From assembly GCA_019748155.1 (NCBI GenBank), contig JAIEPY010000020.1, positions 1-44,751 of the forward strand: a stretch of 44,751 nucleotides of DNA, written 5' to 3'. Below, one piece after another: positions 8,009 through 39,705 of the stretch (the first letter of the stretch is position 1; each line of letters opens with the position of its first letter). The position numbers were made by a program, and so were the translations under genes. Origin of the DNA: Burkholderiales bacterium. GTDB taxonomy: Bacteria > Pseudomonadota > Gammaproteobacteria > Burkholderiales > UBA11063. The notes under the pieces are model-generated. The model saw only the letters and a list, made by a program, of their open reading frames with translations, did not search any database and had not been told where the DNA came from.

Positions 8009-8635
8009 TTATCTTGTTTGTGATTCTACTGGCATACTTTCTGTTGACACTGCTACGGGTAGTTGATTTTCAGCTAATTTACAATTTGGTGCTTTGCTAA
8101 AGTCAAAGTATTTGGGACGATTCTTTACTCGAATATATTTGTCATTGATGAAGTAAACAAAGTTTGAACGCTCAGAACAATTAGCTAGCGTAAAGTTTGG
8201 TGCTGCACTTTCATTATCATGCGGAGCTACATTAAGAAACTTGTATTGACCTAGCTTCTTACCACAAAAACCAAATAAACTATACTGTTTAACATTTCCA
8301 TGGTATTGTGCTTTAATCGCTGAGTCAGAAGCTAGTGCTAGCAGACCAAATTGATCAATCACAATTGGGTTTACCATTTCAGGGCTAGTTACCATAACCA
8401 CGAAATTATTGCTTTCTTCCTCAAATGGTTGAAACATGATGCTTTGGTTTATTTTACACATGCTATTAGCAGGAAGAGTAAATTTACTCGCGCTTTCATC
8501 TAGGTTCTTTATTTGGATAGTTGTTGCTTTTGAGGTATTATTTTTTAAGTATAGATCATCCATGCTAACAGCTAATGCGCCTGCATTTGCGATTAGTGGT
8601 AGTATGCCAATTATGGCTAAATATATATGTTTCAT
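8009..8635 (-). CDS. Secreted protein of unknown function
   Basis: I do not recognise this 208-residue protein. It starts with a clear Sec signal peptide (MKHIYLAIIGILPLIANAGA, cleavage near residue 19-22) and has no further membrane segment, so it should be periplasmic or secreted. The mature part contains four cysteines (in NSMCKIN, FGFCGKK, ANCSERS and PNCKLAE), enough for two disulfides, and ends in a low-complexity tail. It lies 69 bases upstream of the AsmA-type gene in the same direction, without a strong terminator between them, so it could share a transcript and act in the envelope. That link is positional only. Confidence 0.7.
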   Translation of the reverse strand: MKHIYLAIIGILPLIANAGALAVSMDDLYLKNNTSKATTIQIKNLDESASKFTLPANSMCKINQSIMFQPFEEESNNFVVMVTSPEMVNPIVIDQFGLLALASDSAIKAQYHGNVKQYSLFGFCGKKLGQYKFLNVAPHDNESAAPNFTLANCSERSNFVYFINDKYIRVKNRPKYFDFSKAPNCKLAENQLPVAVSTESMPVESQTR

Positions 8636-8798: not shown

Positions 8799-10112
8799 TT
8801 AAAGTGGCTTTGCATACAGGTCATAATCTTTAGCTGCAATAATTTCAACCTGAACAATATCTCCAGCTTGAATATTATCGTATTGCCCCATATTTTTGAT
8901 GTAGATTAAGCCATCAATCTCAGGTGCATCATATTTACTACGCCCAACAATTAGCTTACGTCCAACTTCGTCAATGATTATTGGCATCTGGCTACCGATT
9001 TTGGCTTGTAATTTTGCCTGACTGATAGCTTGCTGGTGCTGCATGAAGCGGTGGTAGCGTTGTTCTTTAATTTCTTCAGCTACATGATCAGCAATCAAAT
9101 TCGCTCCAGCGCCTTCCACTGGTGAGTATTTGAAGCAGCCAACTTTTTCTAATTGTGCCGTAGTCAGAAAATCCAGTAGCATTTGAAAATCTTCTTCGGT
9201 TTCGCCAGGAAAACCAACGATAAAGGTGCTACGAATTGCCAAATCTGGACAAATTTTACGCCATTGATTAATCCGCTCCAAGAGTCCATCAACATTTCCC
9301 GGGCGTTTCATTGCTTTCAAAACTTTAGGGCTGGCGTGTTGAAACGGTATATCTAGATAAGGAAGAATTTTTCCTTCAGCCATCAAAGGAATTACTTCAT
9401 CAATGTGCGGATATGGGTAGACATAGTGCAAGCGTACCCAAACATCTAATTTGGCAAGTTGTTCACATAAATCAATGAACTTGGTTTTAACTGGACGCCC
9501 ATTATGAAATCCGGTTACATATTTCTTATCGCTGCCATATGCCCCAGTGTCCTGAGATACGACTAATAGTTCCTTAACTCCTGCGGCAACCAATTTTTCT
9601 GCCTGAGTAAGCACATCACCGATTGGATAAGAGTCTAATTTACCGCGCATACTTGGTATAATACAAAATGAGCAGGTATTATTGCAGCCCTCAGAGATTT
9701 TGAGATATGCATAATGCTTAGGGGTTAGTTTTACACCTTGTGCCGGAACTAAATCTACAAATGGATCATGGGGCTTTGGTACGTACTTGTGAATTAAATT
9801 TAACACTTCCTGTGCTGCATGTGGACCTGTCACGCCTAATACATTTGGATATTTAGTTTCAATTACACCTTCTTTAGCACCAAGACAGCCAGTTACAATA
9901 ACTTTACCGTTTTCTTTGAGTGCTTCACCAATTGCATTTAATGATTCTTCAACCGCCGAATCAATGAAACCACAGGTATTGACAACAACTAACTCAGAAT
10001 CAGCATAACTGTTAACGACTTCATAACCTTCTGCCTTTAAACCGGTTAAGATATTTTCTGAATCAACTAGTGCCTTGGGGCAGCCCAACGATATAAAACC
10101 AATTTTTGCCAT
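8799..10112 (-). CDS. rimO: Ribosomal protein S12 methylthiotransferase RimO
   Basis: RimO is a radical-SAM enzyme that adds a methylthio group to a conserved aspartate of ribosomal protein S12. The 437 residues contain the N-terminal UPF0004 domain ([16 protein letters not shown], second cluster cysteines), the radical-SAM motif CNNTCSFC with C143, C147 and C150, the RGKL segment typical of the family, and a C-terminal TRAM-like domain ending in DYDLYAKPL. Length is normal. It begins 3 bases after the phaR stop, so phaR and rimO are almost certainly one transcript, an arrangement with no obvious functional logic. Confidence 0.95.
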
Positions 10113-11449: not shown

Positions 11450-11682
11450 GTTTATTCATTTTTTATACATGATTATTGGTTTAGAAAAAAGCTCCATAAA
11501 TACTCTTCCGAGATAAGCTATGCCCAGATCATTATTTCTGGTAAAATACTGTGGTATGCTTTTGATTATACAGAATTTTATTTTAGGTTTTGTAATGTGG
11601 ATTGCGTATTAATATTTGATGTGCTTAAGTTTTTTGAGTGCAATGCTTATTTAGAATATACAAGTGTAGGAAAAATAAAATA
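11450..11682 (+). other. AT-rich dnaA leader, candidate replication origin
   Basis: This gene-free stretch lies directly before dnaA. It contains three imperfect DnaA-box-like sites: TTATACATG (11463-11471), TTATACAGA (11566-11574, eight of nine matches to TTATNCACA) and TGTGGATTG (11596-11604, reverse strand). Genes to the left run leftwards and genes to the right run rightwards, as expected around an origin. No perfect box is present, so the call is tentative. A dnaA promoter must also lie here, but I could not fix its -35 and -10. Confidence 0.35.
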
Positions 11683-13131
11683 ATGACCGAATTGGAAATA
11701 ATTTGGCAGCAGTGTTTAATGTTGATTAAAGAGCAGGGCATCGTTAGCGAGACTGAGTATAATACTTGGGTTAAAACATTACAGCCACAGATCAAAGATA
11801 ATAAATTAGAGATTGTAGCAACTAACCGCTTGACACATGATTTTGTCAGTAAGAAATTCTGGAGCAAGATTAGTGCTGTGTTAGCAGAGTTAACTGGTGG
11901 AGCTGAAGTACAGCTTGTTGTGTCTGAGGTTCGACCGACTCTAAATTTGCAGCAAAATACTAGTGCGGAAACTAAAAGCAATGATGAGAATAAAGCTCCG
12001 AGAATTGACAATGAAAACTTGGCAACGGCGGCACCTAAAGCACCATTGTCACGTGCGCAAGTTAAATCGCGACAAGATAAAGAGGTTTTAACCCAACTTC
12101 ATCAATCGACTAAACTAAATAAAGATTATACGTTTGATAGTTTAGTGCGTGGTAATTCTAATCAGTTGGCTTATGCCATTGGGATGCATATTACCCAAGA
12201 ACCAGGTAATCGCAATCACAACCCCTTGTTTATTTATGGTGGTGTTGGCTTAGGTAAAACACATTTAATGCAGGCAATTGGCAATGAAATATACAAAAAA
12301 AATCCGAATGCTAAAATTCGCTATCTACATGCCAATGATTATATTCAGGATGTAGTAAAAGCTTCGATGCGCCAAGGGTTTGATGAGTTAAAAAGGTACT
12401 ATAACGGTTTAGATTTACTGCTAATGGATGATATTCAGTTTATTGCGGGTGATAAAACCAAGACTCAGGAAGAATTTTTTTATACCTTTAATAACTTGCT
12501 GGATAAAAGTAAACAGGTAATAATGACTTGTGATACTTATCCTAAAAATATTAACAACCTTAATGAGCGCCTGATTTCTCGCTTTGCCTCAGGTTTAACG
12601 GTTGAGATTCAGCCACCTGAACTAGAAATGCGCGTTGCAATTCTGAAGAAAAAAGCGGGGCGGAATAAAATTGATCTTGATGATGAAGTTGCGTTTTTTA
12701 TTGCGCAAAATATTAAATCTAACGTCCGTGAGCTGGAGGGCGCGTTAAATAAAGTTGCCTACCACGCTAAATTCTCACGTAAGGGTTTGAGTATTGCAAT
12801 TGCTAAAGAAGCTTTGATGGACATTATTGCAATTGAATCGCGTAGTGTGTCAATTGATGATATTCAAAAAACAATTTGTGATTTTTATAAGCTGAAAATT
12901 TCTGATTTATTATCAAGTAAGCGTACTCAATTAATTGCTCGTCCGCGACAAATTGCGATGACGATAACGAAAGAGTTGACCCAATATAGTCTTCCGGCAA
13001 TTGGTGAGGCTTTTGGTGGGCGTGATCATACAACCGTGCTGCATGCGCAGCGCACAATTACTGATTTGCGGACCAAAGATGAAAAAATTGACCGCGAATA
13101 TAAACTATTAATTCAAATGTTACAAAACTAA
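11683..13131 (+). CDS. dnaA: Chromosomal replication initiator protein DnaA
   Basis: DnaA binds origin boxes, melts the origin and loads the helicase. The 482 residues show the N-terminal domain (IIWQQCLMLIKEQG), a variable linker, the AAA+ ATPase with Walker A GGVGLGKTH (K192) and Walker B LLLMDD (D249, D250), and the C-terminal DNA-binding domain with GGRDHTTVLHAQR from about residue 445. The start at 11683 fits the family's usual MxxLxxIWxxC beginning; an in-frame ATG 45 bases upstream would add a tail unlike DnaA. The ribosome site is weak (TAGG, 12 bases away). dnaN follows after 15 bases. Confidence 0.97.
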   Translation: MTELEIIWQQCLMLIKEQGIVSETEYNTWVKTLQPQIKDNKLEIVATNRLTHDFVSKKFWSKISAVLAELTGGAEVQLVVSEVRPTLNLQQNTSAETKSNDENKAPRIDNENLATAAPKAPLSRAQVKSRQDKEVLTQLHQSTKLNKDYTFDSLVRGNSNQLAYAIGMHITQEPGNRNHNPLFIYGGVGLGKTHLMQAIGNEIYKKNPNAKIRYLHANDYIQDVVKASMRQGFDELKRYYNGLDLLLMDDIQFIAGDKTKTQEEFFYTFNNLLDKSKQVIMTCDTYPKNINNLNERLISRFASGLTVEIQPPELEMRVAILKKKAGRNKIDLDDEVAFFIAQNIKSNVRELEGALNKVAYHAKFSRKGLSIAIAKEALMDIIAIESRSVSIDDIQKTICDFYKLKISDLLSSKRTQLIARPRQIAMTITKELTQYSLPAIGEAFGGRDHTTVLHAQRTITDLRTKDEKIDREYKLLIQMLQN

Positions 13132-13146
13132 TTTCTGAGGTATAAC

Positions 13147-14250
13147 ATGTTATTGAAATTTCAACGCGATACTTTGCTAAAACCACTTACTCAAACTACC
13201 GGTTTTGTTGAAAAAAAACAAACCATGCCGATTCTTTCAAATATTTATCTCAAAAAATCTGGAGAGCAGGTAATTGTAGTTGCTAATGATATGGAAATTC
13301 AGGCAACACTAAATGTTCAAGGTGGTATTGAGGGTGATGATTTTGCCATTACGTTGCCAGCTAAAAAATTGCAGGATGTATTGAAAGCGTTACCTGATGC
13401 AGAAATTAGTTTGGAAGTAATTGAAAATAAAGTTACAGTAAAAGCTGGAAGAACTAAGTTTACCTTACAAAGCCTACCAGCCGATCATTATCCACTATTA
13501 AGAGTTAGTGATGAATGTGTTGGTCAGTTTAATCTTGCGCAACGTGACTTGCGTGAATTAATCGGTAAGGTTCAATACTCAATGGCGGTGAATGATAGTC
13601 GGGTATTTCTCAATGGTATGTTGCTTGAAATAAAGAATAATCAATTACACTTGGTTGCAACTGATGCACATCGCCTGAGCTTTGTGAATTATGCGCTAGC
13701 GGATATGCTGTCGGATATTAGCACTATTATTCCACGTAAAACCATGCTCGAGCTTTATCGTTTATTAGAAGATAGTGATGATCAGGTAACGATTAAAATG
13801 TATCCAAATCAAGTAATTTTTGAAACTCAAAATAAACAATTGATTACTAAAGTAATTGATGGTAAATATCCGGATTATGAACGGGTGATCCCATTAACCA
13901 ATGATAAATTATGTCTGATTAATCGTGAAGAGTTTTTACATGCCGTGCAACGGGTGGCAGTAATTGGAATTGATAAATTAAAAACTCTGGTGCTGGATCT
14001 AAAACCAAATTTATTGACGATTAGCTGCCGGAATGAGGAACAGGAAGAGTCACGCGATGAGTTAGCCATCCAATATGGTAACGATGCTGAATTACGCTTA
14101 AATTTTAACATCAGCTATGTTTTGGATGTCTTAAATAACAGTAATGCTGAGAATTTACAATGGGCGTTTTTCGATAATCAGCGGAGCATTTTGGTAACTG
14201 TGCCAAATGAAGTTGATTTTAAATACGTGATAATGCCATTACGCAATTAA
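13147..14250 (+). CDS. dnaN: DNA polymerase III sliding clamp (beta subunit)
   Basis: The beta clamp encircles DNA and tethers the replicative polymerase. The 367 residues fit the usual three-domain length. Recognisable parts are the N-terminal LLKFQRDTLLKPLTQTTGFV, the domain-1 segment TKFTLQSLPADHYPLL, the domain-2 LHLVATDAHRLSFVNY that lines the ring, and the C-terminal VTVPNEVDFKYVIMPLRN, a close variant of the canonical MPMRL end that forms part of the binding pocket. GAGG at a good distance precedes ATG 13147. The gene sits in the dnaA operon. recF, which follows dnaN in many bacteria, is absent. Confidence 0.97.
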   Translation: MLLKFQRDTLLKPLTQTTGFVEKKQTMPILSNIYLKKSGEQVIVVANDMEIQATLNVQGGIEGDDFAITLPAKKLQDVLKALPDAEISLEVIENKVTVKAGRTKFTLQSLPADHYPLLRVSDECVGQFNLAQRDLRELIGKVQYSMAVNDSRVFLNGMLLEIKNNQLHLVATDAHRLSFVNYALADMLSDISTIIPRKTMLELYRLLEDSDDQVTIKMYPNQVIFETQNKQLITKVIDGKYPDYERVIPLTNDKLCLINREEFLHAVQRVAVIGIDKLKTLVLDLKPNLLTISCRNEEQEESRDELAIQYGNDAELRLNFNISYVLDVLNNSNAENLQWAFFDNQRSILVTVPNEVDFKYVIMPLRN

Positions 14251-14257
14251 TTACTCA

Positions 14258-14384
14258 ATTACTCTTTGTCTTTGAATCTTGTACTTTGTCGGATTTCAAA
14301 AAAGACTCCTTATGTAGTTCTAGCTACACTGCGTCATCTTTTTTATCAATCCTTCGCGTCCAAGAATCAAATACTTCGAGTAAT
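14258..14384. repeat. 127-bp imperfect palindromic element between dnaN and gyrB
   Basis: The left arm beginning ATTACTC...TTTGAATCTTG...GGATTTCAAAAAAGA matches the reverse complement of the right arm, ATTACTC...TTTGATTCTTG...GGATTGATAAAAAAGA, over about 50 positions with scattered mismatches. The centre contains its own small hairpin, GTAG-TTCTA-GCTAC. The whole element can fold into one long stem in RNA or as a cruciform. No protein is evident. It resembles a MITE or other short mobile palindrome rather than a simple terminator, and fills the place where recF would be. Confidence 0.6.
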
Positions 14385-14405
14385 ATTGCTTAGTAATAAA
14401 AATAA

Positions 14406-16829
<2,424 letters not shown>

Positions 16830-25865: not shown

Positions 25866-26747
25866 ATGTTAGAACCAAGATTACGGGTTGCATTACAAAA
25901 ATCAGGAAAATTATCCGAAGGTAGTTTGGATTTACTTAATAAATGCAGTTTTAAATTACGCCCAGCCAAGAATCATTATCTGATTCAATCCAAAGAAATG
26001 AATACCGATTTTTTGATGATTCGCGATGATGATATTCCGGGTTTTGTAGATAGTGATGCCAGCGATATCGGGATTGTTGGTGAAAATGGTTATTTTGAAT
26101 ACATTTTGGAAAATCCTGAGCATAATTTAACCGTGATTGCTAAGCTGGGTTTTGCGCAATGTCGTTTGAGTATTGCCGCAGCACATGATTCTGGTATACA
26201 AAAGTTAGCTGATCTGAATGGTAAAACCATTGCCACTTCATACCCGGAGACTTTGCGTGATTTCTTGGCTAAGAATCAGATCAAAGCCAAAATATTGGTA
26301 ATGCATGGCTCAGTCGAGCTAGCGCCTAAGATTGCGATTGCTGATGCAATTTGTGATTTGGTGTCTACTGGTACTACGCTTAAAGAAAATGGTTTAGTTG
26401 AGCTTCACATTATTTTGGAAAGCGAAGCCGTGCTGATCGGGCGTAAAACTGCAGCAGCGGATATTTCGGAGCGCACCAATGAATTAGTTTTTCGTTTACA
26501 AAGCGTGATTAAGGCCAAAGACAGCAAATATATTATGCTCCATATTGATAAAGATAATATTGATAAACTTAAAGAAATGCTGCCGGGTTGTGAGTCGCCA
26601 ACGGTCTTGCATTTACACGGTACAGATAATAAAGTTGCGGTGCATGTGGTGAGTAAGGAAGGTGTATTTTGGGATACGATTGCCAAGCTCAAAAGCATTG
26701 GTGCTTCTTCGATTTTGGTGTTGCCGATTGAAAAGATGATGGATTAA
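25866..26747 (+). CDS. hisG: ATP phosphoribosyltransferase, long form
   Basis: HisG joins ATP and PRPP in the first step of histidine synthesis. At 293 residues it is the long form: catalytic domain (RVALQKSGKLSEGSLDLL; SDIGIVGENGYFEYI; the PRPP loop in DLVSTGTTLKENGL) followed by the C-terminal ACT-like regulatory domain (SPTVLHLHG; KVAVHVVSKEGVFWDTIAKL), which binds histidine for feedback control. The long form does not need HisZ. Many betaproteobacteria instead use short HisG with HisZ, so this form is notable if the lineage guess is right. The next gene, an SNF2 helicase, starts only 24 bases later. Confidence 0.94.
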   Translation: MLEPRLRVALQKSGKLSEGSLDLLNKCSFKLRPAKNHYLIQSKEMNTDFLMIRDDDIPGFVDSDASDIGIVGENGYFEYILENPEHNLTVIAKLGFAQCRLSIAAAHDSGIQKLADLNGKTIATSYPETLRDFLAKNQIKAKILVMHGSVELAPKIAIADAICDLVSTGTTLKENGLVELHIILESEAVLIGRKTAAADISERTNELVFRLQSVIKAKDSKYIMLHIDKDNIDKLKEMLPGCESPTVLHLHGTDNKVAVHVVSKEGVFWDTIAKLKSIGASSILVLPIEKMMD

Positions 26748-26771
26748 AATTGATAGTTTTGAGGTGAATTT

Positions 26772-29714
26772 ATGACGCAGTTAAAAAAGCCAAATGCAAA
26801 GAAAGTTAATAAAAAGTCAACTAAGTCGCGAGCTAATAAAAATGAAACACTAAATAAAGTAGATTTATCTACTTGGCAGACTACAGATGAAGATGAGATT
26901 GTTCGACGACAAATCAGAGCAAAGCAAGAGCATTTTGTAATAGAGAATCTAGAACCCGAATATCATCATTTTAGCACTTTTAAAATCTCATCGGTTAAGG
27001 ATGCAAGTTATACGGTGGAAATTCGTTCATTGGATTCCAGAATTAATTCTTGCAATTGCATTGATTTTCGGAGTAATGGCTTAGCTACTTGTAAACATAT
27101 TGAGTTTACCTTAAATTATTTGCAAGCACGTGGTATTCGGAAGTTCAAAACTGCAGCTAAAGCAGGTAGTTCTCGCGTCGAAATATTTCTCGATAATTGC
27201 TATGATATCAGCAGTTCCGTTGCAATTAAGATTCAATACCCTACTAATTCCGATACTAAACAACTAGAACAGTTAGACCAATTTTTTTCGACCAATGGTC
27301 AGCTCTTGGGCGCTCCAGAAAAATCTTATGCAGTACTCAAATCTGTGCTCGAACAGTTAGAAGAAAAATTTCGCGGTAAAGTAAGAATCTCACAACATAT
27401 TGATTATTATATTGAATATCAGCAGCAACAAGGGTTAAAGACCGAACATTATAATACTTTCATGCGTGATGTTGCTTGTGGCAAGATTAATTTAAATTTG
27501 GTTAAAGCTGAGTTGTATCCGTATCAACGCGATGGAATGTTACATCTGGCATTTAATGAGCGCGCTTTGCTTGCTGATGAAATGGGCTTGGGTAAAACCA
27601 TTCAGGGAATAGCCGCGAGTGAATTATTGCGTCGTTATCAGCAAGTAAGCCGAGTTTTAATTGTGACAACAGCTTCATTAAAATCCGAATGGGAAGAGCA
27701 AATCGCCAAATTTACCGATAGTTCTAGTTTATTAATCTATGGTACTCGAGCGAAGCGCTTGCAGGCTTATCGCCAAAAATCTGATTATTACATAATGAAT
27801 TATGAGCAGGCTGTTGCTGATTTTGAGGAAATTAACCGAATTCTAGCACCTGAAATCATAATTCTAGATGAGGCACAACGCATAAAAAACTGGCAAACTA
27901 AAACTGCGGCGAATATCAAGCGCTTAGATAGTCGTTATGCTTTTGTTTTAACTGGTACTCCGATTGAAAATCGGATTGACGATATTTATTCATTAGTACA
28001 ATTTCTAGATCCTTATTTACTCGGTTCATTATTCCGTTTTAATCGTGAATTTTACCAATTTGATGAAGATGGCAAACCCTCTGGTTGCAAAAATCTTAAT
28101 GGGCTTTATCGTAAACTGCAACCGCTAATGCTCTGCCGTAAGAAATCTGATGTTGAGGGTGAATTGCCTCCGCGGACGGTTAATAATTTTTTTGTATCAA
28201 TGGCAAAAGAACAGCGCATTCGTTATGAAGATTATGAGTCTCAACTGGCAATTTTGATGGCTCGGGCACAAAAACGCCATTTGACCAAAGAGGAGTCTGA
28301 GAAATTACAGCGATTATTATCTTGTATGCGGATGATTTGTGATACTCCATATATTTTGGATTCAGATTATAAAGTCGCTCCTAAAATTGATGAATTGGAA
28401 ACTATTTTGGAGGGGGTATTAGCTGATAAATCGTGCAAAGTGATTATTTTCTCAGAGTGGTTGCGAATGCTAGAGCTTGTAAAAGGCATGGTGAATGAAC
28501 AAAATTGGGGAATTGCTTGGCATACTGGGGCGGTGGATCAGAAAAAACGTCGTGAAGAAATTAATCGCTTTAAAAATGACCCAGAGTGTCGATTGTTTTT
28601 ATCTACAGACTCCGGCAGTGTTGGTCTAAATCTGCAAGTAGCAAATGTGGTTATTAATCTGGATTTGCCGTGGAATCCGGCAAAGTTAGAGCAAAGAATT
28701 GCCAGAGCATGGCGCAAACATCAAACCCGAGCAGTGCAGGTTATCAATCTAGTATGTGAAAATAGTATTGAACACCGCATGTTACCTCTTTTAGAGCTGA
28801 AAAAAGCAGTAGCTAAAGGTGTTATGGTTGGTGACGAAGAGTTTAACGATATTCATATGGCGACAGGTCGCGCTGCATTTATGGAGCGCTTAGAAGCATT
28901 GATGACCGATAAGTCTGAGTCAACCCAAGAGGAAAATGCGGACAATCAGAACATAGCATCTAGTTCTAATGAGAAAAATAAGGAACTGTATGCTAATGCG
29001 ACGGAAAACATTGACCTTCAAGATGCAACTGAACGCTCGCTAGTTGATAATATTATTAATAAAGCTAAAAATGATTTAGTTCGTGAATTTGGCACTAAAT
29101 TAAATCAAGTTGATGTGTATATTAATCAAAATAATCAAGAACCGGTTGTGTTTAGTGTCGTTGATAATTTGCCCTCGGATAGCGCCAATAGTGTGTTAGA
29201 AACTGCTACTGGTATTATCAAAGTAGAGCAGATTGATAGCAAAACCTATGATACCTTACAACGTTTGATTGCGGCGGGGGTTATTTCATTAAACCCAGCC
29301 TACAGTAATCTATATTCCAAGAGTTCCCCAGAATCCAAAATGCAAATTAGTGAGCGTAATTTACAATTGGCGGATTGTCATTTGGATAAAGTGGGATATT
29401 ATCATAAAATGGCGGGAGTTTTGCTTGCCAATGAGTTTTTCAAAGAAGTCGTACCTGCGTTAAAATCTGGTTTAAATCATGCTATTCATGTTCTAGGATA
29501 TTTATATGGTGGATTTAACGCCGATAATGATGATTTAGCGATAGATATAGTTCAAGATGTCGTGAGCATTCGCGATGAGCATAGTGATTTTGTTGTGCTA
29601 TTTAAACAGTTGTTTAGTGATGATAGTAAATTAGCACATAGTGAGTTATCTTTGATTGCGAATCGTTTGCAAGAGTCGATTGAGCAATTGAGTAATCTAC
29701 GGAGTAGTTATTGA
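26772..29714 (+). CDS. SWIM-SNF2 family helicase/translocase
   Basis: The 980-residue protein has a Lys-rich N-terminus, a SWIM zinc finger (C94, C96, C107, H109 in CNC...CKH), and a full SNF2 ATPase: LADEMGLGKTIQ (K275), LDEAQRIKNW (DEAQ 366-369), VLTGTPIENR, then the second lobe with STDSGSVGLNLQVANVVINL and RIARAWRKHQTRAVQVINL. About 265 residues follow with no domain I recognise, starting with an acidic linker. Such enzymes move along double-stranded DNA and displace bound proteins; bacterial copies occur in RapA-like roles and in defence systems. It directly follows hisG but has no link to histidine synthesis, so it begins the foreign block. GAGG precedes the start. Confidence 0.9.
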   Translation: MTQLKKPNAKKVNKKSTKSRANKNETLNKVDLSTWQTTDEDEIVRRQIRAKQEHFVIENLEPEYHHFSTFKISSVKDASYTVEIRSLDSRINSCNCIDFRSNGLATCKHIEFTLNYLQARGIRKFKTAAKAGSSRVEIFLDNCYDISSSVAIKIQYPTNSDTKQLEQLDQFFSTNGQLLGAPEKSYAVLKSVLEQLEEKFRGKVRISQHIDYYIEYQQQQGLKTEHYNTFMRDVACGKINLNLVKAELYPYQRDGMLHLAFNERALLADEMGLGKTIQGIAASELLRRYQQVSRVLIVTTASLKSEWEEQIAKFTDSSSLLIYGTRAKRLQAYRQKSDYYIMNYEQAVADFEEINRILAPEIIILDEAQRIKNWQTKTAANIKRLDSRYAFVLTGTPIENRIDDIYSLVQFLDPYLLGSLFRFNREFYQFDEDGKPSGCKNLNGLYRKLQPLMLCRKKSDVEGELPPRTVNNFFVSMAKEQRIRYEDYESQLAILMARAQKRHLTKEESEKLQRLLSCMRMICDTPYILDSDYKVAPKIDELETILEGVLADKSCKVIIFSEWLRMLELVKGMVNEQNWGIAWHTGAVDQKKRREEINRFKNDPECRLFLSTDSGSVGLNLQVANVVINLDLPWNPAKLEQRIARAWRKHQTRAVQVINLVCENSIEHRMLPLLELKKAVAKGVMVGDEEFNDIHMATGRAAFMERLEALMTDKSESTQEENADNQNIASSSNEKNKELYANATENIDLQDATERSLVDNIINKAKNDLVREFGTKLNQVDVYINQNNQEPVVFSVVDNLPSDSANSVLETATGIIKVEQIDSKTYDTLQRLIAAGVISLNPAYSNLYSKSSPESKMQISERNLQLADCHLDKVGYYHKMAGVLLANEFFKEVVPALKSGLNHAIHVLGYLYGGFNADNDDLAIDIVQDVVSIRDEHSDFVVLFKQLFSDDSKLAHSELSLIANRLQESIEQLSNLRSSY

Positions 29715-29836
29715 GTGTTTCTATAATGGTGTAGGTAACAGGTTTAATGATGTTGGGAACCGGGTTTTAACTGTTTGGGGGATTGTTGTGCGGCTACAAA
29801 ATATTAAACTTACTTTAATTGAGAGTGATTGACTAG

Positions 29837-30901
29837 ATGACTGTATCAAGCTTGAGCGTGCAACATTCCTCAGATTATAAAAATTGGCTGGGGGATTTAA
29901 AAAATAAATTTCGCCAAACCCAGATTAAGGCTCATCTTGCGGTTAATACTGCGCTATTAGAATATTATTGGCAACTGGGGAGCGATATAGTTGCGCGACA
30001 AAAATACACAGCTTGGGGTGGTGGTTTTCTCGAACAGTTGAGCCGTGATTTAAGTAGTGAATTTCCTGATGTTAAAGGATTCTCTTATCGCAATTTGAGA
30101 TCTATACGTCAATGGTATTTATTTTGGCAACAACTTGTAGCCAATTTAAGTGAAGCTGATAGACAACAAGCTATTCATAAATTATTTCAATTGCCGTGGG
30201 GGCATAATCTTGCAGTAATTTCTAAATGTCGAAATATAGCAGAAGCATTATTTTATGTGACCAACACAGTTCAATACAATTGGAGCCGTGCAGTACTTAC
30301 ACATCAGATTGAAAGCCAACTTTATGAACGAGATGGTAAATCAATTAATAACTTTAGCCAAACATTACCACAACCACAATCTGATTTAGCCAAAGAAATT
30401 ATCAAAGATCCATATAAATTTGATTTTTTGGGACTAGGCTCAAACTTTAATGAAAAACAGCTTGAGCAGGCGTTGATTGATAATATTAGCAAATTTTTAC
30501 TTGAGCTAGGTAATGGCTTTGCTTTTGTGGGCAAACAAAAATTGCTCCAAGTAGGTGAACGTGATTTTTATTTGGATTTATTATTTTATCATACCAAGCT
30601 GCACTGTTATATCGTAATAGAATTAAAAACTGGTGAATTTCAGCCTGAATATGCAGGAAAACTAAATTTTTATATTAATGCGCTAGATGCGCAAATCAAA
30701 ACTAGTGACGACAAACCAACCATTGGAATTTTGCTATGTAAGACGAAGGATAGCTTAGTGGTTGAATATTCTTTACGCGATATAAATAAACCGATTGGCG
30801 TCGCTGAGTATCAATTAACCCACGAACTGAGTGAAGAATTTAGAAAGAGTTTGCCAAGTGTCGAAGAGCTGCAAGCTGGGTTATTCGGTGAGTGTTTGTG
30901 A
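29837..30901 (+). CDS. YhcG/DUF1016-family PDDEXK nuclease
   Basis: The 354-residue protein has the two-part YhcG layout. The N-terminal winged-helix domain contains YWQLGSDIVARQKYTAWGGG, FLEQLSRDLSSEFPDVKGFS and YRNLRSIRQWYLFWQQ. The C-terminal nuclease core has ERDFYLDLLFYH, then IVIELKTGEF, with the PDDEXK residues D247, E262 and K264. Members are frequent in defence islands and near restriction-modification genes; some act as restriction or anti-phage nucleases. It lies 122 bases after the SNF2 gene in the same direction, suggesting joint action of a translocase and nuclease, which is inference. Confidence 0.9.
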   Translation: MTVSSLSVQHSSDYKNWLGDLKNKFRQTQIKAHLAVNTALLEYYWQLGSDIVARQKYTAWGGGFLEQLSRDLSSEFPDVKGFSYRNLRSIRQWYLFWQQLVANLSEADRQQAIHKLFQLPWGHNLAVISKCRNIAEALFYVTNTVQYNWSRAVLTHQIESQLYERDGKSINNFSQTLPQPQSDLAKEIIKDPYKFDFLGLGSNFNEKQLEQALIDNISKFLLELGNGFAFVGKQKLLQVGERDFYLDLLFYHTKLHCYIVIELKTGEFQPEYAGKLNFYINALDAQIKTSDDKPTIGILLCKTKDSLVVEYSLRDINKPIGVAEYQLTHELSEEFRKSLPSVEELQAGLFGECL

Positions 30902-30979
30902 TGCGCAATTTTAAACTGTTAGGTGCTACGTTACATAATATGGTACAGGTGATGTTTATTGTTTTTGGTGGAAGCAATT

Positions 30980-32800
30980 ATGCAGTTTAAAAGCTTAGGC
31001 GAGCAAATTGAGTTCTTTTTGAATCCAAATAATTTGGATTTATGGGAGCTGCAAAAGTCATTTAAAACGATGATTGATCGCTATTATCGTGCAAAACTAA
31101 CCTCACGAACATTGTTTTCTTTGCAAAAACCAATTGATGAGATTGAAGAACTTTGTGAAATAATAAGGCTTATCAGTAATAAAAAAGCAACTAAGCAATG
31201 TGAAGAAGCGGCCAAAAATTTACAGGAATTATTAGACAGATGTCCAGCAGCAAGTTATTTTAGAGAAATCTTAAATAAAAACATCAAAGAAATAAGTGAA
31301 TTAACTGATGCTACTATAAAAAAACAAGAGTTGTCCGAATTAGCCTCTCATTTGCAGAAAATTTTGCGTGCGTATTTCAAAAAATGCCAGCGAAACTATG
31401 AGTTTCAAGAAATTATTAAAACAAGCAAAAGCGGGTGGCCTGAAACTTGGGAGTTCTTAAGCCGTAGTGTAATATTAACAAGCTTAAGTGGTTTAATTAC
31501 ATACGTAATTAGTCTAATACCTAATCCAATCATAAGCAATCTATCCTTTGAATATTTAAAAAATATACTGAATAACATGAGTGCAATTATTATGGCACTA
31601 ATTATTTGTGTGATTCTTCCTGCCATATACATAGCCCTCGCTATCTTCGATGATAGTCGTTTAATTCTTGATAAAATCAAAGCTAAAGTTGTTCGGAATC
31701 AAAGTGATGCCAAAAAATTCTTTCTCAAGGAAATCATAAAGTTAATCTTTATCACAGCTGTTTTGGGTTTGGTGGTATCTACAATACATGCGCATACATT
31801 TAAGTTTAGCAATAGTTCCTTAGCTTTTTTAATAATCGCAGTAATACTTACAGGTTTGTGTGTTACTGCTAAACATATTTTTTCTGGCATAAAAGACTTT
31901 TTATTTAATCTGCGTGCGGTTGTTTTAATTTTATTACCGATGTTGTTTCCTTTGTTGTGGGCTGCAGTAGCTACTATTGACAAGAATCACCAAGTCGTAG
32001 ATTATATTCTTGTTATGGAGCTTATTGTTATTGTCATAATACTGATCACATTGGTAGAGATGAAATTCTATAACGCTATAAGCAAGGCTGGATTATTTGT
32101 ATTAATTTATTTTGTAGCATCATGGATTATAATTTCTCCGCAAATAAATATTTTAGAACTTTTAGGGTTAAGAAATAACCCTAATATAATATCTTTGTTA
32201 AAACTAAATGAAAATAGTCCTTTTTTAATCGAAGAATTACTGGGTATGGGATTTCAGCAATTACAGTATAATGGTAACGAGTCTCAGGCAAGTGACTTAC
32301 AACTCGAACGCTATGTTTTTGAGTCTAGTATTGAGTCTACAGTATATTTGACTGAGAAGGATATACCATTAGCAGATCTGAAGAATTACGTAGCGCGTAA
32401 TAAAATCTCATTTTGTAATAGTAAGTTAAATCGAGCAGTTTTGTCCGAATTTGAGAATGGCGATGAATCAAAGCATTATTTTGGTTATGAAGGATGTAAT
32501 GCCAATGTTAATGCATTTGAAGCTGATGAAAAGATCAAATTAGTCAACAAACTATTCTTAGTGCGACAATACGAAAGTAATTATACCTATTGGATTTTTG
32601 GAGCACATATTAATTGGAAAAAACCTGATGAATTAATAATTAGTGCAGCAAAGAATGATAATTTTAATACCATCGTACTAAATAAAGACCGTGGAATGCT
32701 ATATTACGATGAAACTCCGTTTTCTACGTTTACCAAACCAGAAAATCTACATAATTTTAGTTTAACTAAATATGGTAATGAGTCAAGCCAAAGTTATTAA
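30980..32800 (+). CDS. Unrecognised multi-span membrane protein with soluble ends
   Basis: I do not recognise this 606-residue protein. The first 165 residues are helical and charged (FKTMIDRYYRAKLTSRTLFS; CEEAAKNLQELLDRCP), probably cytoplasmic coiled coil. About seven membrane helices follow, among them SAIIMALIICVILPAIYIAL, AVVLILLPMLFPLLWAAVA and YILVMELIVIVIILITLVEM. The last 190 residues are soluble, with three cysteines and a WIFGAHINWKKPDELIISAA segment. Start ATG 30980 has GGTGGA seven bases upstream; a TTG at 30959 has none. It sits between a defence-type nuclease and a Fic protein, so it could be the membrane effector of the block, but nothing in the sequence proves it. Confidence 0.75.
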   Translation: MQFKSLGEQIEFFLNPNNLDLWELQKSFKTMIDRYYRAKLTSRTLFSLQKPIDEIEELCEIIRLISNKKATKQCEEAAKNLQELLDRCPAASYFREILNKNIKEISELTDATIKKQELSELASHLQKILRAYFKKCQRNYEFQEIIKTSKSGWPETWEFLSRSVILTSLSGLITYVISLIPNPIISNLSFEYLKNILNNMSAIIMALIICVILPAIYIALAIFDDSRLILDKIKAKVVRNQSDAKKFFLKEIIKLIFITAVLGLVVSTIHAHTFKFSNSSLAFLIIAVILTGLCVTAKHIFSGIKDFLFNLRAVVLILLPMLFPLLWAAVATIDKNHQVVDYILVMELIVIVIILITLVEMKFYNAISKAGLFVLIYFVASWIIISPQINILELLGLRNNPNIISLLKLNENSPFLIEELLGMGFQQLQYNGNESQASDLQLERYVFESSIESTVYLTEKDIPLADLKNYVARNKISFCNSKLNRAVLSEFENGDESKHYFGYEGCNANVNAFEADEKIKLVNKLFLVRQYESNYTYWIFGAHINWKKPDELIISAAKNDNFNTIVLNKDRGMLYYDETPFSTFTKPENLHNFSLTKYGNESSQSY

Positions 32801-32848
32801 TATTATGCAAATTATTAAAAATAGAACACCATTAATGGATAACATTTA

Positions 32849-33916
32849 ATGCACAAATTAACAAACTTACCGCCGGAATATAATTTTGACGATCCTGCAG
32901 TTTGGCGGGCGCTAAATTTAGCTTCGCGAGCATTAGCTGAGTTAAAAGGGGAATCAAAAACTATTCCCAATAGTGATATTTTGATCAATACACTTAGTTT
33001 GCAGGAGTCAAAAGAGAGTTCTGAGATTGAAAATATTGTTACCACGCAAGATGATTTGTTTAAATCGCAAGTTGATGATGGTTTCAAAAATATTGCAGCA
33101 AAAGAAGTAAAGCAATATGCGGCTGCTTTGTTGCACGGCTATCGCTTGATCTCAGAGCATCAATTATTGACAAGTAATCATATTCTTGAGATTCAGGCAA
33201 TATTGGAACCAAATAAACCTGGGTTTCGTAGACTAATGGGTACTGCACTCAAAAATTCTGCTGGTGAAGTGGTTTATATGCCGCCACAAAACCCACAGGA
33301 CATTATTGAACTAATGTCGAATTTGGATAAGTATATTAATTTACCCGAGTTGCATGATGTTGATCCATTGATTAAAATGGCGATTATTCATCATCAATTT
33401 GAAAGTGTTCATCCTTTTTATGATGGCAATGGGCGAACTGGGCGGATTATCAATGTTTTATATTTGATCTATACTCAATTATTGGATATTCCAGTATTGT
33501 ATTTAAGTCGCTATATTAACCAACACAAAACAGATTATTATCGCTTGCTACAATCGGTACGAGTAGATAATAATTGGGGTGAGTGGATCGTTTGGATGTT
33601 GAATGGGGTTTCTGTTACCGCTGGACAAACAGTTGGATTGATTCGTCAAATTAAGAAGTTGATGAATGATTTTCAGCAAAAGATTCAGGCTGATGCTGCA
33701 AACATTTATAGTAAAGAGCTATTGGATAGCTTATTTAAGCACCCATATACCAAGATTAAATTCATTGAAGATGATTTGGGCGTGCATCGCCAAACTGCTG
33801 CGAAATATTTGGATCAGCTCGTTGAGCTTGAGTTACTAACTTCGCATAAAATAGGAAAAAGTAACTATTATATTAATCATAGTTTATTTGACTTGTTAAG
33901 CACGGTAGTTAAATGA
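32849..33916 (+). CDS. Fic-family adenylyltransferase with N-terminal inhibitory motif and winged helix
   Basis: Fic proteins transfer AMP (or related groups) to hydroxyls of target proteins. The 355-residue protein has the complete active site HPFYDGNGRTGR (H188 to R199). The autoinhibitory motif S/T-x-x-x-E-G/N is present as SSEIEN (S57, E61, N62) before the Fic core, making this a class II, self-inhibited enzyme. The C-terminal part is a winged helix with LGVHRQTAAKYLDQLVELEL, so it may bind DNA. This Fic-plus-HTH type is common in mobile and defence regions and can regulate its own locus. Four palindromic boxes start two bases after its stop codon. Confidence 0.92.
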   Translation: MHKLTNLPPEYNFDDPAVWRALNLASRALAELKGESKTIPNSDILINTLSLQESKESSEIENIVTTQDDLFKSQVDDGFKNIAAKEVKQYAAALLHGYRLISEHQLLTSNHILEIQAILEPNKPGFRRLMGTALKNSAGEVVYMPPQNPQDIIELMSNLDKYINLPELHDVDPLIKMAIIHHQFESVHPFYDGNGRTGRIINVLYLIYTQLLDIPVLYLSRYINQHKTDYYRLLQSVRVDNNWGEWIVWMLNGVSVTAGQTVGLIRQIKKLMNDFQQKIQADAANIYSKELLDSLFKHPYTKIKFIEDDLGVHRQTAAKYLDQLVELELLTSHKIGKSNYYINHSLFDLLSTVVK

Positions 33917-33918
33917 CG

Positions 33919-33985
33919 TGTCGAAGAAGCACGAATTTTTCGACATGACAAAATAACGTGTCGAAAAAATGGCAAAATTTCGACA
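33919..33985. promoter_or_regulatory. Four TGTCGAA boxes in alternating orientation at 20-bp steps
   Basis: TGTCGAA (33919-33925), TTCGACA (33939-33945), TGTCGAA (33959-33965) and TTCGACA (33979-33985) are perfect copies of one 7-mer, direct and inverted in turn, each separated by exactly 13 bases. A 20-bp step is about two helical turns, so all boxes face the same side. The flanks also agree (CGTGTCGAA and TTCGACATGA). This is what a cooperative, multi-dimer operator looks like, lying between fic and hisD. As RNA, each pair could also form a 10-bp hairpin, so a transcript-level role is the alternative. Confidence 0.6.
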
Positions 33986-34143
33986 TGAGAAACTAAAATT
34001 TGACTAAAATTATCAATAACCATTTTATTTATAATGGTAAAGTAATGTACGTAAACGTATCAAGCTGAGATCTAAAACCAGCAATAACGGCAATAAGAGA
34101 CATGCCGTGCAATCTAAAGATTAATTTTAAGGGAGTGGGTAAA

Positions 34144-35439
34144 ATGCGTGTGGTAACGTGGAATAAATTAAACGCAAATGAACAAGAACAAGTATTAAGC
34201 CGTAGTAGTAGCAGCGATGATGCTGCCTTAACGACATTGGTAAAAGGTATTATCTCTGACGTACGCGCTCGTGGTGATGCAGCATTATATGAGTATGCAG
34301 AGAAATTTGATGGGGTAAAACTAGATTCTTTAATCGTGAGTGAAGCGGAATATGCAGCGACCGAGAGCCTATCCGCAGCTGACAAACAAGCGATTTTAGA
34401 TGCAATTGATAATATTCGCCATTACCATACGGTGAGTGCGCCGAAACCTTTTGAATTTGAAAAAAATGGTGCGAAATTAGGTAAAATATTCCGCCCAATT
34501 GAAAAAGTTGGTTTGTACATTCCCGGAGGAACTGCACCATTGGTTTCAACGATGCTAATGCTTGCGATTCCGGCAGAAATTGCAGGTTGCCCAACCAAGG
34601 TTCTGGTAACACCACCAAGCAAAGATGGCACGATTAATCCGGCGATTTTATTTGCTGCCAAAGCTTGTGGCATTGACGCGGTGTATAAAGTTGGTGGAGC
34701 GCAAGCGATTGCGGCATTGGCATTTGGAACTGAATCAATCCCAAAAACTTACAAAATTTTTGGACCGGGTAACAAATACGTAACTGAAGCCAAGATTCAG
34801 GCAGCGCAACATCATCAAGGTGCAGCAATGGATATGCCAGCCGGACCATCGGAAGTGTTGGTGATTGCTGATGAGAAGGCTAATCCGGTTTTTGTTGCCA
34901 GCGATTTACTAGCGCAAGCCGAGCACGATGTAGCAGCACAAGTGATTTTAGTTACTACTTCAGCCAAGTTAGCGGAGACGGTTCAGCTTGAAGTTGCTTG
35001 TCAAACCGCTTATCTATCACGTAAAGAAATTATTGAGCAATCATTGGCAAAAAGCGCGACAATTATTGCTGCAGATATGACGGAAGCGTTTGCAATTTCC
35101 AACCAATATGCCCCGGAACATTTGATTTTGCAGGTTGAAGATGCTGAGAGCTATTTATCACAGGTAATTAATGCTGGTTCGGTATTTGTCGGTGCATGGA
35201 CACCTGAATCGGTGGGGGATTATGCCAGCGGAACCAATCACGTTTTACCAACTTATGGTTATGCACAAATGTATAGCGGTTTGGATGTGATTGCCTTTAT
35301 GAAATCAATCTCATTCCAAAATCTATCCGAAGCAGGGATTCGCCATTTAGGACCTACGGTCGAAACTTTGGCTGATTTGGAAGGTTTGGATGGACATAAA
35401 AATGCGGTGACAGTACGCTTAGATTATCTACGTGGTTAA
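34144..35439 (+). CDS. hisD: Histidinol dehydrogenase
   Basis: HisD performs the last two oxidations of the pathway, L-histidinol to L-histidine, with NAD and zinc. The 431 residues carry the family segments VGLYIPGGTAPLVSTMLMLA, KVGGAQAIAALAFGTESIPK, FGPGNKYVTEAKIQA, DMPAGPSEVLVIADE, LLAQAEHDVAAQVILVT, and the catalytic NQYAPEHL. The start at ATG 34144 follows AGGGAG; the frame stays open to an ATG at 34102 that has no ribosome site. Its own promoter must lie in 33986-34143, as a 7-kb foreign block separates it from hisG. Confidence 0.96.
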   Translation: MRVVTWNKLNANEQEQVLSRSSSSDDAALTTLVKGIISDVRARGDAALYEYAEKFDGVKLDSLIVSEAEYAATESLSAADKQAILDAIDNIRHYHTVSAPKPFEFEKNGAKLGKIFRPIEKVGLYIPGGTAPLVSTMLMLAIPAEIAGCPTKVLVTPPSKDGTINPAILFAAKACGIDAVYKVGGAQAIAALAFGTESIPKTYKIFGPGNKYVTEAKIQAAQHHQGAAMDMPAGPSEVLVIADEKANPVFVASDLLAQAEHDVAAQVILVTTSAKLAETVQLEVACQTAYLSRKEIIEQSLAKSATIIAADMTEAFAISNQYAPEHLILQVEDAESYLSQVINAGSVFVGAWTPESVGDYASGTNHVLPTYGYAQMYSGLDVIAFMKSISFQNLSEAGIRHLGPTVETLADLEGLDGHKNAVTVRLDYLRG

Positions 35440-36810: not shown

Positions 36811-38463
36811 ATGCAATGGTTAAATAAACAAGTTCGCCCAGAGATTCTTGCTCTGGCGCCTTATGTTTCGGCTCGTTCTGAATTAGCTGATGCTAGCGGT
36901 TTGATTCCGCTTGATGCCAATGAAAATCCGTGGGCACCGTATCCACAAACTGCAGAGATGAGCCTAGTAAATCGCTATCCTGACCCTCAGCCAGTTAATT
37001 TATTATCGCGCTTAGCAACTTTTTACGGGGTAAAAACCGAGCAGATTTTTGTTGGTCGTGGGATGGACGAGGGGATTGAGTTACTGATTCGGGTATTTTG
37101 TACTGCTTATCAGGATAATATCGTTACCGCTAAACCAACTTTTTCATACTATAAAGTTGCTGCTGATATTCAAGGAATTGAAACCCGTGAGCTTGCATTA
37201 GGTGCTGCACCTGATTTTAAATTGGATATCCAGCAATTATTAGCGCTATGTGATGCCAAGACTAAAATTATTTTTGTCTGTACGCCGAATAATCCAACCG
37301 GTAATTCATTAACACTTGCTGAGATTGAAACTATTTTAAAAGCTAAGCCTGAAGTAGTTTTAGCGGTGGATGAAGCCTATTTGGAATTTAGTAGCTTACC
37401 ATCGGCAATTGCTTTAATGAGCAAGTACGACAATCTGGTGGTAATGAAAACAATGTCCAAAGCCTTTGCCTTTGCTGGAGTGCGGATGGGGAGTTTACTT
37501 GCCCAACAGCCAATTATTGAGCTAATTCGTAAAGTAATGGCACCCTATCCGTTAGCTGAACCATGTATTCGTGTCGCGATGCAAACGCTTTCACCACATG
37601 GGATGTACTTAGCGCAAAGCCGGATTGATACGCTAAAAAGCGAACGAGAGCGGGTATTCTCTGCGTTACAACAAGTTGCGGGTATTACCGTTTACCCTAG
37701 TGGTGCTAATTTCTTATTGGTGCAAGTTGTTGATGCCGCTAAGACTTATAAGGAATTATTAGCCAAAGGAATTATCGTCCGTAATCGTCACAAAGACATT
37801 GCCAATACTTTACGAATTACCATTGCTTCCGCTGCGGAGAATGATTTATTATTGGCAGCTTTTGGAGTTGCCGGAGCTAATCCACAACTACAGCGCACTG
37901 CTACCGTAATTCGCAATACCAACGAGACCAAGATTGTTGCCGAAGTTAATCTGGATAAAACTACGCCAGTTAAAATCCATACTGGGATTGGTTTTTTTGA
38001 TCATATGCTTGAGCAATTGGGTAAACATGGTGGCTTCAGCTTAAAACTGATTGCTGATGGTGATACTCATATTGATTACCATCATACTGTCGAAGATGTG
38101 GCGATTACGCTGGGGCAAGCTCTCAAACAGTCGCTGGACAATAAGCGTGGTATCAATCGCTATGGCTTTACAGTTCCGATGGATGAATCATTGGCTTCAG
38201 CCAACATTGATTTGAGCGGGCGTGGCGTGCTGGTTTATGAAGCATCATTTGCGACACCGCTGATTGGTGATTTTCCGGTGGAAATGGTTGAACATTTCTT
38301 TTATAGCTTGGCTGATTCTATGGAGGCTGCAATTCATCTCAAAGTTAGTGGTGAAAATGCGCATCATCAGGTCGAGGGCTTATTCAAAGCTTTTGCTAAG
38401 GCGCTGCAGCAAGCAATTGCAATTACCAGCGATGGATTACCTTCCACCAAAGGCATACTATGA
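36811..38463 (+). CDS. hisC-hisB: HisC-HisB fusion: histidinol-phosphate aminotransferase and imidazoleglycerol-phosphate dehydratase
   Basis: One 550-residue frame holds two enzymes. Residues 1 to about 355 are HisC, a fold-type I PLP aminotransferase with IFVGRGMDEGIELLIRVF, FVCTPNNPTGN and the cofactor lysine K217 in TMSKAFAFAGVRMG. After a short QLQRT junction, residues about 360-550 are HisB dehydratase with the Mn-binding HHTVEDVA and GENAHHQVEGLFKAFA and the terminal PSTKGIL. They catalyse steps 7 and 6 of the pathway, consecutive reactions. No phosphatase domain is present. E. coli fuses HisB to a phosphatase instead, so this pairing is unusual. The TGA overlaps the next ATG (ATGA). 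Confidence 0.95.
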   Translation: MQWLNKQVRPEILALAPYVSARSELADASGLIPLDANENPWAPYPQTAEMSLVNRYPDPQPVNLLSRLATFYGVKTEQIFVGRGMDEGIELLIRVFCTAYQDNIVTAKPTFSYYKVAADIQGIETRELALGAAPDFKLDIQQLLALCDAKTKIIFVCTPNNPTGNSLTLAEIETILKAKPEVVLAVDEAYLEFSSLPSAIALMSKYDNLVVMKTMSKAFAFAGVRMGSLLAQQPIIELIRKVMAPYPLAEPCIRVAMQTLSPHGMYLAQSRIDTLKSERERVFSALQQVAGITVYPSGANFLLVQVVDAAKTYKELLAKGIIVRNRHKDIANTLRITIASAAENDLLLAAFGVAGANPQLQRTATVIRNTNETKIVAEVNLDKTTPVKIHTGIGFFDHMLEQLGKHGGFSLKLIADGDTHIDYHHTVEDVAITLGQALKQSLDNKRGINRYGFTVPMDESLASANIDLSGRGVLVYEASFATPLIGDFPVEMVEHFFYSLADSMEAAIHLKVSGENAHHQVEGLFKAFAKALQQAIAITSDGLPSTKGIL

Positions 38464-39705
38464 ATAAAGAAGAACGTAAGATTGTAGGTCTGGCAGCTCT
38501 TGGTGGGATGCTGGAACTCTATGATTTCGCAATTTATGGCATGTTTGCCGTTTATTTTGCGCATCAATTTTTCCCGAGCACCAATGCTTATACCGCGATT
38601 TTAGAAACTTATATGGTTTTTTCGTTGGGGTTTATTTTGCGTCCATTGGGTGGAATCATTTTTAGCCATATTGGTGATGAGTATAGTCGCAAAAATGTCC
38701 TGGTATATACGATCCTGATTATGGGGGGCTTCGGTTGGAATCGCATTCTTACCAACGTATGCTACGATAGGGATGGCCGCGCCGTTGTTGTTACTTCTCT
38801 TCCGGCTTTTGCAAGGTTTGGCGATTGGTGGTGAAGTTCCAACTACTTTATTAGTGAATCAATGCCTAAAAAGCGAATTTTGGCGTTTGGGGTCACTATG
38901 ACAGGTGTGTTTAGTGGCTATTTATTTGCGGCAGCAATTAATTATATCCTTACACGCTGTTTTGATAATATTCAGTTAAATGATTTTGCTTGGCGTATTC
39001 CCTTTGCCTTAGGTGGCTTAGTCTGTTTCATTAGTTACAAAATCCGTAAAAGTCTCCGTGAGACCAAGGTATTTCAGGAAATAATGAATAAGCCTAAACT
39101 TCCACTGGTTTATTTGCTCAAAAACTATACTCCGCAAGTTGGTGCAGGAGTAATTTTCTCGGCTACTCAACAGGTGTTTTCTATTTTAGCGATCATTTAT
39201 ATGCCAACTTATCTGCGCTCTATTTTACAGCTAAGTCAGGACTCGATAAATAGTATGCTGCCAGTAGCGTTAGCTGTGTCAGTGATGACGATTGCCGCAT
39301 CTGGGGTAGTATTGCGTAATCTGGTAAATTTACCGCGTCTTATGATGGTTTCTTTATTGGTAAATCTACTAATTGTACCTCTAGCGTACTATTTGATTGT
39401 CAATCAATACTCATTTAGCGGCTATATTTTATTGATGTTTGGGCATGCTTTTATTGGCTTAATGATCCCCTTTATATTTAACAACCCTGTTTCCGGCTAA
39501 TATTCGGCTTAGCGGTGTTGCAATGAGTTACAACTTATCGGTTGCTACTTTTGGTGGTCTGGCTCCGGTTTTGGTTACTACTGCAATTAAGCAAACACAA
39601 GCGATTTACCTTAGCCCGGTATTGTATATTTTAGCATTTATTGTCGCAAGTATTATACTGGTTGCGCTATTTTCTATTAAAAATAACAAAGTTTATACAG
39701 AATAA
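38460..39705 (+). pseudogene. MFS (metabolite:H+ symporter-type) transporter gene broken by three indels
   Basis: The gene starts inside the hisC-hisB stop and reads as an MHS/ProP-like transporter (LELYDFAIYGMFAVYFAHQF; RPLGGIIFSHIGDEYSRKN). It shifts frame at a G6 run (38723-38728); with five G it would continue [15 protein letters not shown]...[11 protein letters not shown]. It shifts back at a T3 run (38847-38849), where four T would give [14 protein letters not shown] third shift at CCCCTTT (39467-39473) leads into LYLTTLFPANIRLSGVAMSY. The rest is intact to 39705, about 415 codons in all. All three lesions are in homopolymers, so true decay, phase variation and sequencing error are all possible. 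Confidence 0.8.

Follow-up and report, generated by a model that had tools for sequence, protein, structure and literature searches.

A helically phased array of alternating 7-bp boxes beside a SoFic gene is a probable operator read by the SoFic winged helix

What reads the four alternating TGTCGAA/TTCGACA boxes that lie between a fic gene and hisD in a Burkholderiales bacterium (UBA11063)? The boxes are located on contig JAIEPY010000020.1 of assembly GCA_019748155.1, of which we analyzed positions 1 to 44,751 (here referred to as the window). A preliminary description based on the sequence alone had reported four perfect 7-mers in alternating orientation with exactly 13 bases between them, and had suggested that such regularity is hard to get by chance and fits a cooperative operator. 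The Fic protein, through a winged helix, was named as a possible reader, and hisD was named as a possible target. The boxes map as follows.

33919..33925, + strand: box 1, TGTCGAA (exact match)
33939..33945, − strand: box 2, TTCGACA, inverted (exact match)
33959..33965, + strand: box 3, TGTCGAA (exact match)
33979..33985, − strand: box 4, TTCGACA, inverted (exact match)
33911..33990, no strand: whole array, a direct repeat of two 40-bp units that are 75% alike

These coordinates agree with the preliminary description. The layout is TGTCGAA-N13-TTCGACA-N13-TGTCGAA-N13-TTCGACA with a step of 20 bp and all boxes perfect; the array starts two bases 3' of the fic stop codon (TGA at 33914-33916, followed by CG and then box 1), and hisD is the next gene downstream. 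Based on all TGTCGAA arrays identified in this work, the half-site extends to A-Y-R-TGTCGAA-A-A. Base composition gives an expectation of ~0.0002 for exact spaced pairs in the window and of ~4e-11 for four-box arrays in the 2.67-Mb genome; the regularity is indeed hard to obtain by chance, and a chance origin of the array is excluded. The preliminary description had also proposed to look for frequent spaced pairs in the genome and for the array in relatives. In its own genome (2.67 Mb), the array is single-copy, with no second exact box pair at any spacing from 0 to 30, and matches with two mismatches were not enriched (7 versus 10 for a reversed-pattern control). The array recurs, again with a 20-bp step, in other species of the genus and across bacterial phyla.

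The gene that ends immediately before the array encodes, as judged from its sequence, SoFic, a member of a single-protein anti-phage AMP-transferase family. The following features of this gene are relevant here.

32849..33916, + strand: fic, encoding SoFic (355 amino acids; Fic_N, Fic with motif HPFYDGNGRTGR, and a C-terminal winged helix-turn-helix [wHTH]), the proposed reader of the array (Pfam, PADLOC, PDB, AlphaFold2)
33659..33886, + strand: SoFic-like_C winged-helix domain, residues 271-346 (Pfam, 5.8e-25)
33782..33826, + strand: recognition helix and preceding turn, residues 312-326, VHRQTAAKYLDQLVE (AlphaFold2 model, mutual-information scan)

The PADLOC SoFic profile (PDLC03963) matches residues 5-351 of the 355 residues with an E value of 4.8e-115. 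Pfam gives the Fic_N, Fic, and SoFic-like_C architecture, in line with the earlier proposal that the protein carries a winged helix, and the Fic motif HPFYDGNGR fits the consensus HPFx(D/E)GNGR. The fold is that of Shewanella SoFic (3eqx_B; Z 41.5, root mean square deviation 2.1 over 346 residues); 3zcn is also a SoFic structure, and 9tb0, 9tc4, 9tch, and 9tcl are further recent SoFic entries in the PDB. In the AlphaFold2 model (predicted local distance difference test, 86), the C-terminal domain folds as a winged helix in which residues 314-326 form the helix at the recognition position. Residues 57-62 read SSEIEN, of which E61 and N62 are invariant in 28 relatives; by sequence, this inhibitory motif places the protein in class II.

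We determined how often such arrays accompany SoFic genes using two samples. In the first, 167 SoFic-like genes were selected blind to arrays, by SoFic-like_C matches in the genus, phylum, class, and Bacteroidota, and were scanned with an array finder blind to box spelling that accepts at least three alternating boxes with steps of 19-21 bp; the relatives are partly metagenome-assembled genomes (MAGs). An array adjoined 95 of the 167 genes (76 upstream, 21 just downstream of the stop codon as in the window, and 2 both), compared to 7 of 153 control stretches inside the gene, 2 of 155 in the far flank, and 19 of 1,670 shuffled regions (Fisher p ~1e-26 against the inside-gene control and ~1e-32 against the far-flank control). 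Upstream arrays had a median extent of ~−89 to −42 relative to the start codon. In the second sample, a DNA-only search of 84,980 genomes with a three-box pattern returned 117 stretches from many phyla, against a chance estimate of ~2. With the window and the loci of its genus counted and a GC-rich family resembling repetitive extragenic palindromic (REP) elements with 21-23-bp steps excluded, 92 array loci were left. A Fic gene was present in 49 of these 92 loci, while the next most common family, HsdR, was present in 9; in addition, three supposed orphan loci had a SoFic with an HRQ helix just beyond the fetched stretch. A search of viral contigs by protein for related loci gave none that could be confirmed.

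Across these loci, the geometry of alternating boxes at 19-21 bp is constant while the spelling varies (TGTCGA, TGTATA, TGTAAA, TGTTAA, TGCACA, and TGGGTA), and the spelling covaries with exposed residues of the recognition helix of the adjacent SoFic. The relevant helix positions are X313-R-Y315-T-A-Z318, which in the window SoFic are H313, Q315, and A318. Helices with [HKGQ]R[QE] go with TGTCGA(A/T) boxes, [ST]RQ with TGTTAA, [ST]R[ILMV]..T with TGTATAG, [ST]RP mostly with TGTAAAG,.RN with TGCACAA or TGCCCAA, and NRK with TGGGTAA. TCGA boxes were found with 21 of 21 genes in the [HKGQ]R[QE] class and with 0 of 49 in the other classes (p 3e-18, with relatedness ignored), and 34 of the 38 Fic proteins adjoining DNA-selected TGTCGAA arrays have a residue other than S or T, then R, and then Q or E at these positions. 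The main control for relatedness was the ranking of alignment columns by the mutual information that each shares with the box core, because plain ancestry would lift all columns alike. Among 351 columns, 315, 313, and 318 ranked first to third (z 14.1, 12.3, and 12.1, respectively; median column 2.6, 95th percentile 7.8), and all three are within the recognition helix or at its edge. In a phylogeny built from the catalytic domain alone, the TCGA class requires four changes, at least two of them on well-supported branches, and the TCGA spelling arose at least twice; in independent pairs, helix and box shifted together in 4 of 4 cases, and in 2 of 2 on supported branches. Among Bacteroidota, we observed five SoFic proteins (L300, L303, L304, L313, and L316) that are 89-97% identical and have L or P at residue 315, and their arrays switch from one spelling to the other (TGTATAG or TGTAAAG) and are mixed in L300 and L304, forming a natural specificity-switch series.

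The helix-to-box rule was written down before new loci were fetched, and it was then applied to 20 loci from plasmids and phages, for 17 of which it gave a prediction. Of these 17 predictions, 15 named the core that scored best of the five without a tie, 1 named a tied core, and 1 was wrong (p ~3e-9 against a 1-in-5 chance). Among the full arrays at these loci, five of six matched exactly, and the sixth was one letter off (TGCATAG versus TGTATA). In an Actinomycetota hold-out, no array scoring at least 20 came with a prediction, and some loci with a prediction had no array; one locus (L387; helix SRQ, TGTTAGC) agreed with the rule and was below the score threshold.

The linkage of arrays to SoFic genes across phyla and the covariation of box spelling with the recognition helix favor the Fic protein as the reader, as the preliminary description had considered, and we regard it as very likely, on these comparative data, that the array is the operator of the adjacent SoFic, whose wHTH would read the boxes, probably in negative autoregulation of fic. 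The wHTH of each SoFic subunit would contact one 7-bp box within the extended half-site, and residues 313, 315, and 318 would mainly set the box spelling. With boxes alternating every 20 bp, that is, every two turns of DNA, at least two SoFic dimers could align on one face of the DNA, an arrangement that fits a cooperative operator. In most relatives, the array overlaps the likely fic promoter, and binding there would repress the gene of the toxic anti-phage enzyme itself. Binding, cooperativity, and repression by SoFic are predicted from this arrangement, and local autoregulation of a fic gene has one published precedent, CccR, which is discussed below.

Several observations weigh against this conclusion. 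About 40% of the SoFic-like genes have no array detectable by our finder, and many TGTCGAA arrays are in genomes that yielded no SoFic-like_C domain (19 of 25 tested, some of them incomplete MAGs); within the genus, genomes G014 and G007 also carry TGTCGAA arrays with no SoFic-like_C found. The test on independent pairs is too small for significance alone. One SoFic (L250) has the helix SRLTAS next to a perfect TGTCGAA array, and in G015 a Fic with an unrelated helix (TNV) sits between TGTCGAA arrays. Lastly, the array in the window is 3' of fic, which makes simple repression of a fic promoter impossible at this locus. Arrays without a SoFic are possibly relics of lost SoFic genes or sites for another reader. 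We note the following loci in this context. The genomes of L036 (2096-2163), L037 (1052-1077; G014), and L038 (8979-9005; G007) have no detected SoFic, and the TGTCGAA arrays or half-arrays at these loci have RhuM-Fic/REase genes or ordinary genes as neighbors. In L033 (G015), arrays at 8317-8383 and 10017-10083 flank the Fic whose wHTH departs from the code. At L378 (895-2127; G1054), a Fic lacking SoFic-like_C (helix QRQAAYRIVERL) has four-box TGTTTCA arrays with 20-bp geometry on both sides, and the array habit therefore reaches beyond SoFic.

With regard to the position 3' of the gene, downstream arrays keep the code (TGGGTAA with NRK, TGCACAA with HRN and SRN, and TGTATAG with SRM and TRL), which suggests that they are still SoFic sites. 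Of the genes with a downstream array, 6 of 10 have a co-directional gene less than 100 bp ahead, versus 10 of 47 in the comparison, and such fic genes may therefore lack a promoter of their own. A 3' array may act as a roadblock at the transcript end, in control of an antisense start, or as a parking site that fixes the activity state of the enzyme. In a more speculative version, which we consider unlikely, the array would be a local DNA dock on which aligned SoFic dimers are quiet, and stripping or destruction of the DNA during phage infection would free the toxin. Docking would account for arrays either upstream or just downstream, provided that they are beside the gene, and it would agree with the reported dimerization and activity switch that DNA induces in CbFic2 and with the displacement of the EcSofic C-terminal domain by ATP (see below).

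Among the other explanations, the reader could be an unlinked regulator common to many bacteria, with SoFic as one of its targets. The orphan TGTCGAA arrays in genomes without SoFic-like_C agree with this idea, but the spelling would then neither follow nor be predictable from the recognition helix of the neighboring Fic, and we consider an unlinked reader highly improbable. A role in RNA, in which the inverted repeats form hairpins that terminate or stabilize the fic transcript, has in its favor that the strand has a good predicted fold (z −4.95), in which box 1 pairs with box 4 and box 2 with box 3, and that many arrays are directly past a stop codon. However, hairpin potential comes with any operator of inverted boxes, arrays of this kind are for the most part located 5' of fic, and within a helix class the boxes are kept as letters with no compensatory variation and covary with the protein helix. 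Moreover, there is no good GC-rich stem with a T-run, only one weak 5-bp terminator candidate inside the array. The array has no match in Rfam. On the basis of the fold and terminator scans and the helix covariation, a hairpin or terminator was dropped as the main role, for which we see very little likelihood.

The possibility that the array mainly controls hisD, as a promoter or attenuator element of the his genes, draws on the position of the array 158 bp ahead of the hisD start and on a TTGACT hexamer at 34000.

34144..35439, + strand: hisD, the gene that follows the array, not regarded as its target (Pfam Histidinol_dh, 1.1e-160; relatives)

In two sister species, G009 and G021, however, the array is found with fic at other loci, starting 77 and 3 bases past the fic stop codon, respectively, next to genes unrelated to hisD; similarity to the window covers the end of fic and the array, with none in the DNA downstream. 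In G009, hisG directly adjoins hisD, and no array separates them. Thus, the array moves with fic and not with the neighboring gene, and hisD is not a conserved partner. As the box spelling also tracks the Fic helix, we abandoned the earlier suggestion of hisD control, which now appears very improbable. In the window, a defense-like block splits hisG and hisD (25866-35439) and comprises an SNF2 helicase, a DUF1016/YhcG nuclease (PADLOC PDC-S02), a 613-amino-acid membrane protein, and SoFic, while G002 (L039) has an Abi_alpha gene and another gene ahead of hisD. Because its contents differ between the window, G009, and G002, the hisG-hisD gap has the appearance of a hot spot for insertions.

Least probable of all are sites of recombination or cassette boundaries (attC- or dif-like) and REP-like repeats of the dispersed kind. 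In favor of this class, a set of four inverted boxes looks like an attC in its folded form, arrays in some cases adjoin defense genes without SoFic, and the G015 Fic has arrays on both sides. Against it, the array is single-copy in its genome and covaries with the Fic helix, no recombinase family recurs among the neighbors at array loci, and the genuine REP-like family, GAGCCTGTCGAAGG, has steps of 21-23 bp and flanks rich in GC. An attC-type site was rejected as the RYYYAAC-GTTRRRY core is absent from the array and array loci have no recurrent recombinase, a REP or bacterial interspersed mosaic element as there is one array in 2.67 Mb instead of many dispersed copies, and the attC/dif-like or REP-like class as a whole on the basis of helix covariation and the single genomic copy. 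Separately, we observed arrays of the form GAGCCTGTCGAAGG...CCTTCGACAGGCTC with 21-23-bp steps (L050, L058, L103, L129, and others) that are scattered through Acidovorax and other genomes of high GC content; these look like a separate REP-type repeat, which has only the TGTCGAA core in common with the SoFic arrays.

Three characterized Fic systems bear on these results. CccR of Yersinia pseudotuberculosis, a Fic protein with a C-terminal HTH whose structure has been compared with that of SoFic SO_4266 (3eqx), represses its own gene via footprinted inverted repeats (PMC9755527). Its operator is a single pair of 10-bp boxes, AGATAATCAT-N26-ATGATAATCT, 36 bp apart center to center, in the promoter (PMC9755527), whereas SoFic arrays have three to four or more 7-bp boxes with 19-21-bp steps, are located upstream or downstream, belong to the SoFic family proper, and differ in spelling by helix class. 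Inverted boxes in the gene's own promoter, as in CccR, are not the arrangement in the window, where the array is 3' of fic, while 76 of the 167 family genes have an upstream array. The window protein belongs to the same family as SoFic/EcSofic, a published anti-phage protein (PMC12249575; PDB 3eqx, 3zcn, and 9vjc) in which the C-terminal domain is described as regulating toxicity and is moved by ATP (PMC12249575); a text search of PMC12249575 found no operator. EcSofic has a downstream gene for a 47-amino-acid antitoxin, AS1 (PMC12249575), whereas the fic-hisD gap in the window contains no such sense-strand gene and no sense-strand open reading frame (ORF) of at least 16 residues with an ATG start. 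CbFic2 of Coxiella burnetii, like the window SoFic a class II Fic with a wHTH, undergoes DNA-driven dimerization and an activity switch (PMC10628234; PDB 8cil). It differs in its DUF4172-type N terminus and is ~21% identical to the window SoFic over the aligned fold, and DNA tests of CbFic2 used random sequences only, so that it has no known specific site (PMC10628234).

Elsewhere in the window, a single ORF (36811-38463) fuses a HisC-like aminotransferase to HisB (imidazoleglycerol-phosphate dehydratase), with a similar 568-amino-acid ORF in G009. A sugar-transporter-like gene of the major facilitator superfamily within the his cluster (38460-39500) seems to be split into ORFs of 124 and 212 amino acids. 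The gene order dnaA-dnaN-gyrB (11638-16829) indicates that the window is probably near the replication origin.

To our knowledge, the C-terminal domain of SoFic, a widespread single-gene system, has had no assigned target, and we know of no established trigger. No SoFic operator was found in the open-access PubMed Central literature; earlier knowledge elsewhere is possible. The helically phased operator proposed here would name a target for SoFic and provide a residue-to-base read-out code for this DNA-binding domain, and the hundreds of naturally varying, linked protein-operator pairs are a data set for recognition by winged helices. With DNA as the ligand, the operator would offer a handle in vitro and would make control of toxin quiescence directly testable.
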